IMG/VR virus record: IMGVR_UViG_3300005613_000473
Span: 1-21,308 of that record
Length of the DNA: 21,308 bases
Source: a virus
Strand: one strand, 5' to 3'
The translations under genes were made by a program, and so were the position numbers. Shown here in pieces: positions 15,586 to 21,308 of this stretch (position 1 is the stretch's first letter; each line of letters begins with the position of its first letter). Under the pieces are notes generated by a model, which saw only the letters and a program-made list of their open reading frames with translations, was not told where the DNA came from and did not search any database.

Positions 15586-16026
15586 ATGAATGATAAATTT
15601 AAATCGCTGAACGAAACTTTTGATGTTACTGCAGAGGTTGCTGAGACATCGATGAGTAAAATATCAGAAAAAGATGAAATTATTAAGAAAACAAGATCTT
15701 CGGATGAAGACATTAGAAAAGACTACGAATATACTAGAGGAAATTTATATTCAATTATTGAAAAGGGACAAGAAGCAATCAATGGTATATTGGAGTTAGC
15801 TCAAGAAACAGAACAGGCAAGAGCGTATGAAGTTGCTGGACAATTAATAAAAAATGTTGCAGATGCAACTGACAAGCTTATGGAACTTCAGAAAAAATTA
15901 AAAGATGTTGAGGAAGAAAAACAAATTAAAGGTCCCTCCACAGTTAACAATGCATTATTTGTTGGATCAACCGCAGATTTGGCAAAGATGTTGAAAAATG
16001 GATTAAAAGATAAAGAAGATAAATAA
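15586..16026 (+). CDS. gp16: Small terminase subunit gp16
   Basis: This 146-residue protein is the counterpart of T4 gp16 (about 164 residues), which regulates the gp17 packaging motor and helps start DNA packaging. The central part aligns with T4: IRKDYEYTRGNLYSIIEKGQ matches T4 [20 protein letters not shown], and ARAYEVAGQLIKNVADATDK followed by LMELQKKLKDV matches T4 [20 protein letters not shown] followed by ILKLHKDMKDI. The two central helices are those that form the oligomeric ring in this family. The tail NNALFVGSTADLAKML matches T4 QNATVFMGSPTELMDEI. It begins 10 bases after gp15. Unlike T4, gp17 does not follow directly; five genes intervene. Confidence 0.9.
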   Translation: MNDKFKSLNETFDVTAEVAETSMSKISEKDEIIKKTRSSDEDIRKDYEYTRGNLYSIIEKGQEAINGILELAQETEQARAYEVAGQLIKNVADATDKLMELQKKLKDVEEEKQIKGPSTVNNALFVGSTADLAKMLKNGLKDKEDK

Positions 16027-16070: not shown

Positions 16071-17981
16071 ATGCCAAAGGATTTACCTTCTATTGACGAA
16101 TTTGCTGAAAATAATAGTGATTTGCCATCTATAGATGAATATTTCATAGAAGAAGTTGATGGAAATCTTCCTTCTATTAATAATTTTATTGAAAAAGAAG
16201 AACTAGAAGAAAATATACAAACGATTGAAGATGCAAATGGAGAAACTTTTGCAGAGGTAAAAGATATTGTTCCTCCTTGGCAAGAACTTATTAGATTAAT
16301 AAATGATGTTAGAGAAGAAATTCCAAATATACCAGAAATCAAATATTATGATTCTGAATTAGAAAAACTTTGTGAAATCGTAGATCAGGTAAGATCAGAA
16401 ATACCAACAATACCTGAAGTAAAGTACTATGATTCAGAAATAGAAGCAATATGTGAACAAATTGATCAGGTAAAGAGTTATATCTCAAGTTCTATTTCAG
16501 AACTACCAGAGGTAAAATATTACGATAATCAAATTGTAGAAATAGAAGAAAAACTTAGTGCTATTAGTCATAGCATTAATAATCTTCCAGAACCAAAATA
16601 TTATGAGGATGATCTTCAATCAATTAAAGAAGACATTGAAAAAGTAAGGAATGAAATACCAATATTTCCAAAATGGGTAAATGAAGTTAATGAAGTTCCA
16701 GATTTTTCTTGGATTGGAAAAACTTTTAGTGTGATTGATGATGACTTTATTAAAGTTAACGACACTATTGAAACTCTTGGTGAAAAAATAAAATTAGAGA
16801 TTTCAAAATTATCCGAAGAAAATGAAACCAGATATTTTGAGAATAAGATTCAATTTGGAACTGATATTAATGACTTAGATAACAAGATTCAAGGTGAAAA
16901 AGAAAAAATTTGGAAAGAATTGAGAGAGTCTTCCCTAAAAATTTGGGAATATCATAAAGAATTTAAAGATGACGATAAAAAATTAAAAAAACAAATACTT
17001 GGCGAATATAACAAGTTAAAGCAAAGTATTAATGAAGAAATCAAAAAATACAATCAGAATAGTGTTGAGACTGATAAACTTCTTTTAAATTATTTTGAGG
17101 ATCTTAGAAAAGAAATTTCGGAACTTCCTGAAGTAAAATATTATGATGATGATCTACGCCACATCAGAGTAGACATAAAAGAACTTCGTGATATTGTAAA
17201 AAATATTAAATTAGATCAAAAATCTATACAAGAATCAATACAAGAGGGACTTCTAAATGAACCTCCTGATAAGCCAGAATCTGTAGACGGAAAAAAAGAT
17301 CCATTAACACCAATGGATCAAAAGTTTGCAACTTTAGATGATCTTGCAAATCATTATCGTTTATTCATTAATAGAATTCAGCAACAAATTTCTACAATTG
17401 GTGGAGGTGGAGCAGGATTTATTAAAGATCTTGATGACGTAAGTTTTGATCAAACAACGGGAAATAACAAACTTTTAATTTATGATCAAGCAAATTCTAA
17501 ATGGGTTGGAATTGCTAGTACGGCTTTAAGTGGATCAACAGCTTTAGTTGACTTAACAGATGTCAACATATCTAATTTGGGTGATGGTAGATTTTTAAGA
17601 TATGATGCATCATCAAGTGAATTTACTTTTTCTCCTGTTTCTGCAACTAACCTCGAATTAATCGCTGGAGATATACAGTCTGGTATTTTAACTACCACAT
17701 CAATTCTTCCGGCAACAGTAATGTCAATAAGTGCTACAACATATAGATCTGTTAATTATCAGATTCAAGTTACAGAAGGAACTAACTACAATATGACGAC
17801 AATAAATGTAATACATGATGGTACAACTACATATATGACAGAATATGGAACTATTAATCATCCCGTAGGAATTGCCACATTTTCTACTGATATTTCTGGG
17901 GGATCTTTAAGATTATTAGGTTATCCATCTTCAACTAATTCAACAACTTTTAAAGTTATCTTCACTGCGCTAGAGGTATGA
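16071..17981 (+). CDS. Fibre-like protein with coiled-coil KYYD repeats and bead C-terminus
   Basis: This 636-residue protein is probably a fibre or spike-like virion component. Residues 5-39 hold three copies of a short motif (LPSIDEF, LPSIDEY, LPSINNF). Residues 70-200 and about 340-385 are charged helical segments punctuated by five copies of (L/I)PE(V/I/P)KYY(D/E), with tyrosines at 92, 119, 150, 177 and 357. The middle (about 200-340) is Lys/Glu-rich and likely coiled coil. A Gly run at about 444 leads to two bead motifs (IKDLDDVSF..KLLIYDQANSKWVG and LVDLTDVNI..RFLRYDASSSEF). A beta-rich C-terminal domain with MTTINVIHDGTTTYMTEYG follows, a type I recall from marine phage fibre-like proteins. 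Placement between gp16 and gp17 differs from T4. The next gene starts inside its stop codon (ATGA). Confidence 0.75.
   Translation: MPKDLPSIDEFAENNSDLPSIDEYFIEEVDGNLPSINNFIEKEELEENIQTIEDANGETFAEVKDIVPPWQELIRLINDVREEIPNIPEIKYYDSELEKLCEIVDQVRSEIPTIPEVKYYDSEIEAICEQIDQVKSYISSSISELPEVKYYDNQIVEIEEKLSAISHSINNLPEPKYYEDDLQSIKEDIEKVRNEIPIFPKWVNEVNEVPDFSWIGKTFSVIDDDFIKVNDTIETLGEKIKLEISKLSEENETRYFENKIQFGTDINDLDNKIQGEKEKIWKELRESSLKIWEYHKEFKDDDKKLKKQILGEYNKLKQSINEEIKKYNQNSVETDKLLLNYFEDLRKEISELPEVKYYDDDLRHIRVDIKELRDIVKNIKLDQKSIQESIQEGLLNEPPDKPESVDGKKDPLTPMDQKFATLDDLANHYRLFINRIQQQISTIGGGGAGFIKDLDDVSFDQTTGNNKLLIYDQANSKWVGIASTALSGSTALVDLTDVNISNLGDGRFLRYDASSSEFTFSPVSATNLELIAGDIQSGILTTTSILPATVMSISATTYRSVNYQIQVTEGTNYNMTTINVIHDGTTTYMTEYGTINHPVGIATFSTDISGGSLRLLGYPSSTNSTTFKVIFTALEV
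16083..16187 (+). repeat. Triple LPSID motif at the N-terminus of the fibre-like protein
   Basis: Three short units start at residues 5, 18 and 33, each LPSI(D/N)(E/N)(F/Y), separated by acidic spacers of 6-8 residues. They look like linear binding motifs in a disordered head region, possibly docking sites on a multimeric partner. No partner can be named. Confidence 0.6.
16332..16667 (+). repeat. Four tandem KYY(D/E) helical repeats, 27-31 residues each
   Basis: Repeat starts are at residues 88, 115, 146 and 173, giving periods of 27, 31 and 27. Each begins PE(I/V/P)KYY(D/E) and continues with a charged helix such as SEIEAICEQIDQVKSYI. A fifth copy begins near base 17127. DNA copies have diverged, so this is an old protein-level repeat rather than a recent duplication. 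Confidence 0.75.
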
Positions 17982-18133
17982 AGACATTTAAACAATTTCA
18001 AGAGGAATGGTCTGATAAATATAAAAAGAGTATTGATTGCTCTAATCCAAAAGGGTTCTCTCAGAAAGCGCATTGTGCTGGAAGAAAGAAGAGAGCAAAA
18101 GGTGATACTACTAAATCAAAACCAGTTGAATGA
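17978..18133 (+). CDS. Small basic protein with capsid-targeting-like N-terminus
   Basis: This 51-residue protein begins MKTFKQFQEE. Its ATG overlaps the TGA of the fibre-like gene (ATGA at 17978-17981), and its own TGA (18131-18133) overlaps the next ATG (18130), so it sits in a chain of coupled overlaps. The first ten residues closely resemble the T4 internal protein III capsid targeting sequence MKTYQEFIAE as I remember it. The rest is strongly basic with two Cys: SIDCSNPKGFSQKAHCAGRK followed by KRAKGDTTKSKPVE. The CSNPKGFSQKAHC segment is a motif I recall from other marine phage proteins. A head-internal, DNA-contacting role is inference. The gp21-type cleavage signal is weaker here (FQEE) than in the sister gene at 19496. 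Confidence 0.7.
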   Translation: MKTFKQFQEEWSDKYKKSIDCSNPKGFSQKAHCAGRKKRAKGDTTKSKPVE

Positions 18134-19494
18134 AAAAGAACGGACGCTGCCCTGCAGGACAATATTACTGCTATACAAATAAGGAGTGTAGACCCATTCC
18201 ATCAGGATTTATGGTTGATCCTGATGGAATGCTTCGCAAAGAAAACGGTGCTTCTGTTGACGAAGGAACTCTTCATAAATGGTTTAAATCATCAAAATCT
18301 AAGGATGGAAAACCTGGTTGGGTTAATGTAGTTACAGGAGGAACCTGTGCTAGCGATGAACCTGGAGAAGGAACTCCCAAATGTGTCTCATCAGCAAAAA
18401 GAGCAAATATGACTCCTGCAGAGAGACTTTCTGCTGCAAGAAGAAAGAAAAAAGCAGATCCAGGACAGCAACAAAAAACTGGAGCTGCAAAACCAACTTA
18501 TGTTTCAACCGACAAACCAAAGAGAAAAATGAACGAAGAAAAAAAACAACCAGATCATGAACACTCAATGATTCGTTCTGAACTTGAGACAATTCGAAAG
18601 GCAGTAGATCGTCTTAAGTTAAAAATGAAGGGGGAAGGCAATGTAGAAGCATGGGTACAATCTAAAATCACTAAGGCCGCCGATTATATTGATTCTGCTG
18701 CAGATTATATTGATAGTGGTGAGCATAATGTTCATGGATCAGTGGACGAGCAAAAAGATGTTAAAGGTAAAAGTAGCGGTAAAAAAGATGCTTGTTATCA
18801 CAAAGTAAAATCTCGTTATGATGTTTGGCCTTCTGCTTATGCATCTGGTGCTTTGGTTAAATGTCGTAAAGTGGGTGCTTCTAATTGGGGAAATAAATCA
18901 GAATCTTTAGAGGTAGAGGAAGCAAAGAAGTGTTGGCCTGGTTATGAAAAGAAAGGGACTCAAAAACTTTTTGGTAAAACTTATAATCGTTGCGTAAAGA
19001 AAGAAGAATTAGAAATAGATGAGGCAGTAAGACTTCCATCAAAAACAGGAAATATTATTCTTGTAACTCTGACTTGGAGAGGTAAGTATTATGCTATTAA
19101 GATGTTCTTCCCACAAGTAACAAAACCAAGTAGGCAAGATGTTCAGACTCAAATTAATAAGGTGTATCCCGGATCAAAGGTAAATAGTTACTATATTAGT
19201 GATATTAAACCAGGAGAACAATTATTACAAACAGAAGATTGGCAGAAAGTCAATCGTCAAGATAAAACTGATGGATTAAGCAAAGCAGCAGTCAAAGCAT
19301 ATCGTCGTGAAAATCCTGGTTCAAAGTTACAAACTGCAGTAACTGAAAAAAATCCAGAAGGCAAAAGAGCAGAAAGAAGAAAATCGTTTTGTAGTCGTAT
19401 GAAAGGAATGAAAAAGAGATTAACTTCTGCAGAAACTGCGAGAGATCCAGATTCAAGAATCAATAAAGCACTTCGTCGTTGGAACTGTAACTAA
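18130..19494 (+). CDS. Cys-rich basic mosaic protein, function unknown
   Basis: This 454-residue protein is built from several small units. In order: Cys7/Cys14/Cys20 in GRCPAGQYYCYTNKECRPIP; GWVNVVTGGTC to KCVSSAKRANMTPAERLSAA (63-103, Cys73 and Cys85); EAWVQSKITKAADYIDSAAD (about 173-192), a helical motif common in marine phage proteins; KKDACYHKVKSRYDVWPSAY, ASGALVKC (218-245); CWPGYEKKGTQKLFGKTYNR, C (268-288); a beta/alpha domain at 309-357 (TWRGKYYAIKMFFP, YPGSKVNSYY) shared with the 108-residue protein; and a basic C-terminus with FCSRMKGMKKRLTS and SRINKALRRWNC. I recall such units in cyanophages but know no function. Paired Cys and basic charge suggest metal or nucleic acid binding; that is inference. 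A TGA lies immediately before the ATG in this frame. Confidence 0.8.
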   Translation: MKKNGRCPAGQYYCYTNKECRPIPSGFMVDPDGMLRKENGASVDEGTLHKWFKSSKSKDGKPGWVNVVTGGTCASDEPGEGTPKCVSSAKRANMTPAERLSAARRKKKADPGQQQKTGAAKPTYVSTDKPKRKMNEEKKQPDHEHSMIRSELETIRKAVDRLKLKMKGEGNVEAWVQSKITKAADYIDSAADYIDSGEHNVHGSVDEQKDVKGKSSGKKDACYHKVKSRYDVWPSAYASGALVKCRKVGASNWGNKSESLEVEEAKKCWPGYEKKGTQKLFGKTYNRCVKKEELEIDEAVRLPSKTGNIILVTLTWRGKYYAIKMFFPQVTKPSRQDVQTQINKVYPGSKVNSYYISDIKPGEQLLQTEDWQKVNRQDKTDGLSKAAVKAYRRENPGSKLQTAVTEKNPEGKRAERRKSFCSRMKGMKKRLTSAETARDPDSRINKALRRWNCN

Positions 19495-19495
19495 A

Positions 19496-19525
19496 ATGAA
19501 ATCCTTTAAACAATTCCTTTCAGAA
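19496..19525 (+). other. Candidate capsid targeting peptide MKSFKQFLSE
   Basis: Ten codons encode MKSFKQFLSE, matching T4 IPIII MKTYQEFIAE at M1, K2, F7 and E10, with conservative changes at 3, 4 and 8. The LSE end fits the gp21 cleavage consensus. A second copy, MKTFKQFQEE, is at 17978-18007; the two copies share M1, K2, FKQF at 4-7 and E10. Confidence 0.5.
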
Positions 19526-19822
19526 AGCGTAAATATTACAGGAGATTTCAATGGAAATCTTTATATAAATGGTTCAAAATCTCAATCAGAATCTGTTGAT
19601 GAGCAATTCGTTGCTGATATTGTTTGGGAGGGGAAACTTTACCGCATGGAAATTTCCTCAGATAAAATTCCATCTAGAGAATCTCTGGGGGAACAAATTC
19701 AAGAAACATATCCAGGTGCTGTTGTCCATAACATTTATCCAGCACAATATAATTCAAACAGTGCATTAAGAATTACAGGAATTAAAAGATATCAACCAGA
19801 AAAATTAAGTTGGACGGACTAA
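19496..19822 (+). CDS. Small protein with capsid-targeting-like N-terminus and duplicated WxGKxY domain
   Basis: This 108-residue protein begins MKSFKQFLSE, very close to the T4 IPIII targeting peptide MKTYQEFIAE, and LSE fits the gp21 prohead protease cleavage rule (L/I)-x-E. Cleavage after Glu10 would leave SVNITGDFNGN at the new N-terminus. Residues 38-81 repeat a domain of the preceding 454-residue protein: W44, G46, K47, Y49, P59-S60-R61, Q67-I68 and Y72-P73-G74 match W316, G318, K319, Y321, P333-S334-R335, Q341-I342 and Y346-P347-G348, with a single two-residue gap. The ATG follows the upstream TAA by one base, and the next gene begins 4 bases after its stop, so it is translationally linked to both. 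Function unknown; an internal head protein is the leading idea. Confidence 0.75.
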   Translation: MKSFKQFLSESVNITGDFNGNLYINGSKSQSESVDEQFVADIVWEGKLYRMEISSDKIPSRESLGEQIQETYPGAVVHNIYPAQYNSNSALRITGIKRYQPEKLSWTD

Positions 19823-19826
19823 TAAT

Positions 19827-21143
19827 ATGGCTCAGTGGAATAAAAACATACAAGATTATTTGAATCAGGAAAGAACTCTTCATGAGGTGATAATGTGTGC
19901 CGATAGATACGGCAATATTGGAAACTGTGGTGTTGGTGGAACTGGAAATACCAGTGGAGATGCTTTTGGGAGGATGAGAATATCTCAACCTCTTACACTT
20001 TTTGATAGTTTTCATAGGTATAGAGATAATAATCTTTGGGAAGAATCTCTTGTCGGAACTGGTGCTACCGTTGGTATTGTAACATCACAAGGTTTAGTTG
20101 ATATTGGTATTGGAACTACTGCTGGTTGCTCTGTGATTAGAGAAACTACAAAAGTATTCTCATATCAACCAGGCAAATCACTATTAATATTAAACACATT
20201 TGTTCCAGCAACACCAAAAGAAAATCTAAGACAAAGGATTGGATACTTTGGTGCCGATAATGGAATGTATTTTGAAATTGATGGAACGGATGTATATTTT
20301 GTAGAAAGAAGTCTATCAACTGGAACAGAAACAAGAGTATTGCAAGATGATTGGAATGTTGATAAGTTAGATGGAACTGGTGTTTCTGGTATTACATTAG
20401 ATACCACCAAAGCACAAATCCTTTGGATGGATGTTGAGTGGTTAGGACTTGGAACGGTTAGGATGGGATTTGTAATTGATGGGAGAATGATTCACTGCCA
20501 TTCATTCCATCATGCAAATATTATCCAATCAACTTATATCACAACAGCATCATTACCTTTAAGATATGAGATTGCGAATACTGGAATTACGACAAGTTCA
20601 AGCACACTCAAACAAGTATGTTCTACTGTAATTTCGGAAGGAGGTTATGAACTTCGTGGACTACAACAAGCAATAGGAACTCCAATTCAAACTCCATATA
20701 CTCTTTCTATTGCTGGAACTTTTTATCCAATAATTAGTTTAAGATTGAAATCATCCCCAGATAGATTGGATGCAATTGTTATTTTGACTGCTATTTCTTT
20801 GATGGGTGTGGGTAATGGTATCAATTATAACTGGCAGATGAGAGCATCTGGAACTACAACAGGAGGAACTTGGACAAGTGCTGGTATTGATAGTGCGGTG
20901 GAATATAAACTGAATGGAACTGGTATAACTGGGGGAAGAATATTAGCATCTGGATTCTTCAATTCTGCAAATCAAGGTTCGCCAAATCTTGATATTCTTA
21001 AAGAAGCACTCTTTAAGTTTCAGTTAGAACGAAATGGATTGACTGGAACTCCTTATGAACTCACACTTGTTGTTGCTGCAAGTCCAATATCAAGTAGTGA
21101 AGAAGTTTATGCGGCATTAGATTGGGAAGAGATTAGTAGGTAA
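19827..21143 (+). CDS. Virion-type beta-rich protein before gp17
   Basis: This 438-residue protein has no signal peptide or transmembrane segment. Its N-terminus has MCADRYGNIGNCG (Cys24 and Cys34) and then DAFGRMRISQPLTLFDSFHR, Y at 45-65. The DAFGR.R.S.P.TLFDS motif is one I recall in phage structural or tail-associated proteins, including marine T4-like ones. The rest alternates beta strands and Gly/Thr turns (GYFGADNGMYFEIDGTDVYF, IGTPIQTPYTLSIAGTFYPI), consistent with a large sandwich or jelly-roll-like fold (WMDVEWLGLGTVRMGFVIDG). It ends in LDWEEISR five bases before gp17. A virion attachment or decoration role is likely from its type; it is not a T4 gene counterpart that I can name. 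Confidence 0.7.
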   Translation: MAQWNKNIQDYLNQERTLHEVIMCADRYGNIGNCGVGGTGNTSGDAFGRMRISQPLTLFDSFHRYRDNNLWEESLVGTGATVGIVTSQGLVDIGIGTTAGCSVIRETTKVFSYQPGKSLLILNTFVPATPKENLRQRIGYFGADNGMYFEIDGTDVYFVERSLSTGTETRVLQDDWNVDKLDGTGVSGITLDTTKAQILWMDVEWLGLGTVRMGFVIDGRMIHCHSFHHANIIQSTYITTASLPLRYEIANTGITTSSSTLKQVCSTVISEGGYELRGLQQAIGTPIQTPYTLSIAGTFYPIISLRLKSSPDRLDAIVILTAISLMGVGNGINYNWQMRASGTTTGGTWTSAGIDSAVEYKLNGTGITGGRILASGFFNSANQGSPNLDILKEALFKFQLERNGLTGTPYELTLVVAASPISSSEEVYAALDWEEISR

Positions 21144-21148
21144 TTATT

Positions 21149-21308
21149 ATGAGTGATGTCTATTTGGGAAATCCGCTCCTTAAAAAAGCAAATACTCCAA
21201 TTGAGTTCACTCAAGAACAAATTGAGGAGTTTATTAAATGTCAAAGTGATCCTGTATATTTTGCAAAAAACTATGTAAAGATTGTAACTCTTGATAAAGG
21301 ATTACAAC
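21149..21308 (+). CDS. gp17: Large terminase subunit gp17, 5' end only
   Basis: The frame opens at ATG 21149 and runs off the window after 53 codons. The visible N-terminus (MSDVYLGNPLLKKANTPIEF, then TQEQIEEFIKCQSDPVYFAK, then NYVKIVTLDKG) is the characteristic start of gp17 in marine T4-like phages. This is the packaging ATPase-nuclease that pumps DNA into the prohead, stimulated by gp16. The Walker A and nuclease motifs lie beyond the window and cannot be checked. The start codon is 5 bases after the upstream stop, and the start lacks a Shine-Dalgarno sequence. Confidence 0.88.
   Translation, partial: MSDVYLGNPLLKKANTPIEFTQEQIEEFIKCQSDPVYFAKNYVKIVTLDKGLQ

Follow-up and report, generated by a model that had tools for sequence, protein, structure and literature searches.

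Putative T4-type capsid targeting peptides on two small proteins encoded between the terminase genes of a T4-like cyanophage

Why should two small genes between the terminase genes of a T4-like cyanophage encode proteins that begin almost alike? The question is raised by the IMG/VR virus record IMGVR_UViG_3300005613_000473, a fragment of 21,308 nucleotides (21.3 kb), hereafter the window. Its 51-residue (17978..18133) and 108-residue (19496..19822) proteins start with MKTFKQFQEE and MKSFKQFLSE, respectively. Their genes lie between terS and terL and, as an earlier sequence-only reading had described, on either side of a gene for a Cys-rich basic protein of 454 residues (18130..19494; these and the other window features given below are on the + strand). 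That reading took the shared start for the capsid targeting sequence (CTS) of phage T4. Our analysis makes it very probable that both products are head proteins targeted to the capsid in the manner of the T4 internal proteins. Comparisons beyond the window drew on its relatives, the closest named one being Synechococcus phage S-SRM01 (Kyanoviridae).

We represented the shared start, or tag, by the strict pattern MKx[FY]xxFxxE and used the reversed pattern as a control. Given the residue frequencies of the window, the chance of two such starts among its 14 genes is about 1e-8. Across the T4 genome the pattern matches exactly three genes: those for IPII and IPIII, both of which are headed by MKTYQEFIAE, the decapeptide that had been named for IPIII, and gene 61.1 (MKTFKEFIKE). 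The proposed collection of similarly headed proteins, carried out in relatives, yielded 79 strict matches from 46 phage records, whereas the reversed pattern yielded 4; as most of these records were chosen through the 108-residue family, which supplies about 37 of the 79, a fairer figure is about 42 versus 4. Moreover, of the 202 distinct complete matches listed in two pattern scans of IMG/VR, 200 headed an open frame of at least 50 residues; in the DNA from the second of these scans, the same held for 26% of ATGAAR sites. The tag in cyanophages is not due to chance. Gene 61.1 (AF158101 18966-19130, - strand), annotated as hypothetical and adjoining 61.2, encodes 54 residues beginning MKTFKEFIKED; its product is possibly a T4 internal protein that has gone unrecognised.

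We then asked whether the individual positions of the tag obey the rules known from T4. In IPIII, residues 4 and 7 mediate targeting and residues 8 and 10 processing; Asp at position 10 blocks processing but keeps targeting, and the gp21 protease cleaves after L/I-x-E (PMC9026906, a review of Black's work). In the 81 homologues of the 108-residue protein (phrog_1742), Phe or Tyr at position 4, Phe 7 and Glu 10 are invariant. Position 11 is occupied by Ser, Ala or Gly, and L/I-x-E followed by one of these is present in 77 of the 81, or in all of them if Met 8 is allowed, so that the agreement of LSE with the cleavage rule, pointed out earlier for the window copy, extends to its family. This position-specific conservation at residues 4, 7, 8 and 10 matches the T4 mutational data, and we therefore regard the peptide as a T4-type CTS, as had been claimed. 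Cleavage by gp21 is predicted after Glu 10, at the end of the decapeptide (19496..19525), giving a mature product that starts at Ser 11 (19526).

The 51-residue family follows the targeting half of these rules. Phe 4 and Phe 7 are kept, Gln 8 is present in all 11 tagged copies (the window and 10 homologues), and residue 10 is E, D, N or S. The window site reads QEE followed by W and thus lacks the Leu/Ile 8–Glu 10 processing pair. With both targeting residues in place and Gln at position 8, the T4 residue rule (PMC9026906) predicts for this decapeptide (17978..18007) that the protein is targeted to the head and retains its tag. The peptide may accordingly work as a CTS for targeting, and we do not class the protein among cleaved internal proteins. 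One gene related to this family, in locus L245, has Ile 8.

If the tag is an address, it should be separable from what follows it. In the IMG/VR scans and the relatives taken together, the tagged proteins form at least 64 clusters of bodies. The body of the 51-residue protein (WSDKYKKSIDCSNPKGFSQKAHCAGRKKR; WSxxYKxSIxC in the family) opens a large neighbouring protein in nine other loci, where M(G/S) replaces the tag; its occurrence with and without the tag makes the latter a removable unit. The sequence-only reading had held that the bodies are unrelated and the tag portable. Portability is borne out by the clusters, but unrelatedness needs amending, since the body of the 108-residue protein is homologous to residues 299-370 of the 454-residue protein (AVRLP..LLQTED, 19024..19239; hhalign probability 96%, E 1e-9; phrog_1742 E 0.015).

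A short motif invites another explanation, namely that the peptide is a common amphipathic N-terminal helix with no targeting role, its likeness to T4 being due to convergence or to descent within one family. One large cluster of at least 154 tagged proteins does join the 108-residue, polyprotein and S-adenosylmethionine (SAM) lyase bodies through shared modules. On the other hand, the tag is common to at least 64 body clusters, its conserved positions are those needed in T4, and its T4 matches are limited to internal-protein genes and 61.1. In cyanophage S-SCSM1, moreover, no gene annotated for replication or photosynthesis bears the strict tag. We consider such a helix very improbable.

A cleavable CTS calls for a gp21-type protease. 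S-SRM01, S-SCSM1, S-CREM2 and Syn9 carry genes for both gp21 and gp22 downstream of terL, as does S-RIM8 for gp21. The question of whether the genome itself encodes gp21 is thus answered for relatives, the window stopping short of that region. The gp23 sequences point to a site of the same form. SFLSE/A of S-SRM01 gp23 aligns with SFLTE/A of T4 gp23, with the cut site before A; in the PDB, the mature chains of T4 gp23 fall short of the full protein by 65 residues, consistent with a cut at this point. At the aligned position gp23 has SFLAE/A in S-SCSM1 and GLLTE/A in S-CREM2. The end of the 108-residue tag therefore has the same form, FL(S/T)E before a small residue, as the gp23 site expected in relatives.

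We next asked whether tagged proteins occur in particles, using four published cyanophage virion proteomes (S-SCSM1, S-CREM2, S-SM1 and S-SZBM1). Strictly tagged genes were detected in four of six cases, compared with 14-24% of all genes. S-SCSM1 (labels as in MK867354; PMC9602691) has two, of which the nucleotidyltransferase SSCSM1_91 was detected and SSCSM1_30 was not. In S-CREM2 (PMC10665884), both of its strictly tagged products, the SAM hydrolase ORF6 (19 unique peptides) and the cytidylyltransferase ORF154, were detected, as was ORF136, which starts with MQTFSMFFSE. The product of the sole tagged gene of S-SM1 (PMC3037559), S-SM1_190 (T4-GC190), was likewise detected. S-SZBM1 virions (PMC9146016) contain the cytidylyltransferase SSZBM1_140, whose tag is of a relaxed form (MRFRQFIIEA). 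In all, nucleotidyltransferase was detected in virions of four cyanophages and SAM lyase in those of one. The sequence-only reading had named the tag on clearly cytoplasmic enzymes as a refuting case. The tag does head an enzyme, the nucleotidyltransferase, yet mass spectrometry places this one among the virion proteins. Homologues of the large window protein were also found in particles in two of the three cases for which there is proteomics, SSCSM1_29 and S-CREM2 gp137.

Several findings weigh against reading the window proteins as tagged head cargo. The association between tag and virion covers few independent families and counts the nucleotidyltransferase several times; we regard it as supportive rather than conclusive. 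In S-SZBM1 (PMC9146016), neither the tagged SSZBM1_192 (MKTFKQYITE) nor SSZBM1_194, a homologue of the 454-residue protein, was detected. The homologues of the 108-residue protein itself, SSCSM1_30 and SSZBM1_191, are missing from both proteomes concerned, although one offers two suitable tryptic peptides and the other six. Absence from particles, which had been named as damaging, thus holds for this family in two proteomes and fails for other tagged proteins; it is real counter-evidence, softened by the small size of the protein and the limited depth of those studies. In addition, the 51-residue tag breaks the (L/I)-x-E rule at Gln 8, and the window ends before the region of gp21 to gp23.

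The same absence would suit an alternative in which the tagged proteins are components of the prohead core or scaffold, degraded or expelled at maturation, and not injected cargo. The position of the 108-residue gene among late head genes agrees with this, as do the several gp21-type sites in the 454-residue family, which recall T4 gp22 and gp67. However, the SAM lyase and nucleotidyltransferase that bear the same tag persist in virions, and Syn9 builds heads even though its terS–terL region has no annotated 108-residue gene. We therefore judge a transient core or scaffold role unlikely and retain that of head cargo.

The protein between the two tagged ones appears to belong to the same system. 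It has an isoelectric point (pI) of 9.7, 11 Cys residues, matches to phrog_727 and phrog_3477, and a C-terminal DUF6321 module (PF19846, 19258..19482; E 1.7e-14, above the gathering score). Its family is put together from small modules, shuffled, split or fused from one relative to the next. L/I-x-E[AGSDK] lies at most 14 residues upstream of 40 of 134 module borders, compared with 5.4% of all 15-mers, a count in which the homologues are not independent of each other; the total number of L/I-x-E motifs is 111, against 76 +/- 9 in shuffled sequences. In the window copy, IDE/A, just before the domain resembling the 108-residue body, is the only one of the scored borders that fits strictly. Tags stand at the N-terminus of family members in three loci (L106, L124 and L153). 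SSZBM1_194 has an internal copy, GFITYREFIAEGNRTARMM, that is almost identical to the T4 tag. Internal tag-like copies also occur in P-TIM40, S-WAM1, P-SSM4 and S-SSM5, each immediately ahead of a SAM-lyase-like body. Judging from these motifs, the 454-residue protein is probably a polyprotein of the head, in which tagged cargo modules are joined and which gp21 would cut apart. Uncleaved and internal forms are possible variants of the T4-type tag.

A second form of the tag was seen in polyproteins of 770-1110 residues encoded upstream of the 108-residue gene (L034, L036, L038, L042, L066 and L089). They begin with MASWEEFSRI(V/I)AEA, in which the aromatic pair is kept and the cleavage site lies three residues later. 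Similar segments (FSNWREEL..E/DWQ) occur inside polyproteins, ahead of DUF6321.

Taken together, we find the following account likely. During head assembly, Phe 4 and Phe 7 of the T4-type CTS on both small proteins would bind them to the prohead scaffold core, and the cargo would thereby be incorporated into the head. The gp21 protease would then cut the 108-residue protein after Glu 10 (FLSE/S), leaving free cargo beside the DNA, and would cut the 454-residue polyprotein between its modules. The 51-residue protein, which lacks the cleavage residue, would keep its tag. The likeliest purpose would be injection with the DNA and action early in infection. The window set would exemplify a general cargo system of T4-like cyanophages, one in which the same tag also loads SAM lyase and nucleotidyltransferase.

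What else might such a system carry? Among the matches listed, Pfam cut-offs are passed by tagged domains such as SAM lyase, ART-PolyVal ADP-ribosyltransferase and a zeta toxin-like kinase, and further glucosaminidase, DPBB, DUF6267, phage lysozyme, cytidylyltransferase and a HiPIP-like protein. Tagged SAM lyases (PF23780) are found in S-CREM2 (ORF6, L133:1341-2582) and in L228, L144 and L148, and SAM lyase relatives in 30 cyanophage records. In all four records inspected (P-SSM4, S-SSM5, P-TIM40 and S-WAM1) these relatives adjoin terS, in the terS–terL region, and are annotated as hypothetical. Three IMG/VR contigs (L221:6037-6813, L261:962-1504 and L271:12946-13677) encode tagged ADP-ribosyltransferase-type and zeta-toxin-like proteins, which by their sequences are candidate injected effectors. 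A 67-residue tagged protein of S-SRM01 (47292; L129:41-241) matches the high-potential iron-sulfur protein family (PF01355, E 6e-5).

Phages are known to counter SAM-dependent defences with SAM lyase. T4, for its part, injects three unrelated inhibitors of the GmrSD restriction enzyme behind this tag (PMC12373910). By analogy with these two cases, pre-loaded counter-defence is the most natural reading of the tag system as a whole. The sequence-only reading had proposed a head-internal counter-defence cassette; the T4-type tag and the tagged enzymes, SAM lyase among them, support this in part, counter-defence by the window proteins themselves being conjectural. The 51-residue tag, without its cleavage residue, does not fit it fully. 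A broader proposal is that T4-like environmental phages, cyanophages above all, share a general tag-addressed injection system, in which a removable decapeptide in cleavable, uncleavable or internal form would suffice to predict injected genes. Its dozens of unrelated effectors would include SAM lyases, ADP-ribosyltransferases, a zeta-toxin-like kinase, nucleotidyltransferases and polyproteins of small Cys-rich modules. We put this forward tentatively, with slightly more doubt than belief.

The proteins that marine phages deliver with their DNA are largely unknown. If the tag works in cyanophages, candidate injected proteins could be picked out by a sequence rule in thousands of environmental genomes, and cargo should fall into a cleaved and an uncleaved class, a prediction open to test. 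The tag would also explain the recurrence of nucleotidyltransferase in cyanophage virion proteomes, and a pre-loaded SAM lyase could disarm SAM-dependent restriction ahead of any phage gene expression.

How does the window set compare with known systems? It shares with T4 IPII and IPIII the length and position of the tag, the aromatic residue 4, Phe 7, Leu or Ile 8 and Glu 10 followed by a small residue, as well as small genes, unrelated bodies behind one tag and, in relatives, a gp21-type protease. It differs in that the bodies are unrelated to any T4 internal protein, the 108-residue protein is acidic (pI 5.1) and the tag of the 51-residue family is of the uncleavable type. Moreover, the T4 genes adjoin lysozyme and denV, whereas those of the window lie between terS and terL. 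Injection and GmrSD inhibition are known for T4 only (PMC12373910). The cyanophage virion enzymes, namely the cytidylyltransferase/nicotinamide mononucleotide adenylyltransferase (NMNAT) T4-GC190 and the S-CREM2 SAM lyase, come from the same family, Kyanoviridae, and bear the same N-terminal tag (MKSFLQFLKEA, MKNFSSFLTEA and MKDFDSFLEEF), but their bodies, unlike those of the window, are enzymatic. A virion NMNAT reported for S-CBWM1, outside Kyanoviridae, is without the strict tag.

Polyvalent proteins and other head-packaged effectors (Iyer, Aravind; PMC9503650) are likewise multi-module, virion-carried and thought to be injected, and an ART-PolyVal domain stands behind the tag in L221. They are recognised by MuF or portal domain fusions and gene neighbourhood, whereas here the mark is a separate, removable decapeptide, and the modules of the 454-residue protein are small Cys-rich basic units. 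The L/I-x-E sites between these modules resemble those of head proteins cut by gp21-type proteases (T4 gp22 and gp67; phiKZ, SPN3US), to which homology was not found, cleavage of the 454-residue protein being predicted only.

The literature describes capsid targeting in T-even phages and raises it as a mechanism that T4-like phages may share in general (PMC9026906). In the open literature searched there was no prior report of such a tag in cyanophages, and "capsid targeting" together with "cyanophage" appeared only in that T4 review. The accessible parts of the publications on the virion cytidylyltransferase/NMNAT and the S-CREM2 SAM lyase make no mention of the tag and report the nucleotidyltransferase and SAM hydrolase as passengers, without a packaging mechanism. 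The tag is a candidate explanation for their packaging.

Gene order at the right end of the window is gp15, terS (gp16, 15586..16026; phrog_445 E 1e-52), a 636-residue tail-fibre-like protein (from 16071), the 51-, 454- and 108-residue proteins, a 438-residue virion structural protein (19827..21143; phrog_1645) and the start of terL (gp17, 21149..21307, where the window ends; phrog_5989 E 1e-15). SSZBM1_190, a homologue of the structural protein, was detected in S-SZBM1 virions. Such neighbours might suggest an accessory role for the small proteins in the tail, the neck or packaging. Yet SAM-lyase-like proteins, endonucleases and photosynthesis genes are found at the terS–terL locus in other cyanophages, which makes location a weak guide, and in T4 the tag is a signal for the head interior; an accessory role is hardly credible beside that of tagged head proteins. 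Both small genes are open frames on the coding strand, densely packed with their neighbours: the 51-residue gene shares ATGA overlaps on both sides, and the 108-residue gene starts two bases past the preceding stop. The late-promoter motif TATAAATA does not occur in the window, and the evidence on timing is this tight packing.

As for function, Pfam, PHROGs and PADLOC assigned neither the 51-residue protein (basic, pI 9.8) nor the 108-residue one to a family of known function, and sequence profile searches of the PDB gave no relative. The predicted structure of the 108-residue protein comprises only a beta-beta-alpha-beta core (mean predicted local distance difference test score, pLDDT, 65.5). 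Its best PDB match, 4lk0_M (T7 Gp2, RNA polymerase inhibitor / epsilon fold), was non-significant (Foldseek E 0.36; VIA Z 4.9, root-mean-square deviation 2.3 over 50 residues) and tied with ribosomal proteins, leaving a role at RNA polymerase as a lead only.

Three further observations concern tagged or neighbouring genes. Vibriophage KVP40 has two tag-like starts (L140 and L141; KVP40 39187 and 58233), on a protein of 215 residues, methyltransferase-like as judged by eye, and on one of 484 residues with HEAT-like repeats. In S-PM2 the cytidylyltransferase gene is apparently split (L174, L175; S-PM2 104256-106752), with stops inside the first match and the C-terminal part about 1.8 kb downstream of it. 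Finally, the 636-residue gene of the window has an N-terminal motif in triplicate (DLPSIDEF, DLPSIDEY and NLPSINNF; 16071-16200).

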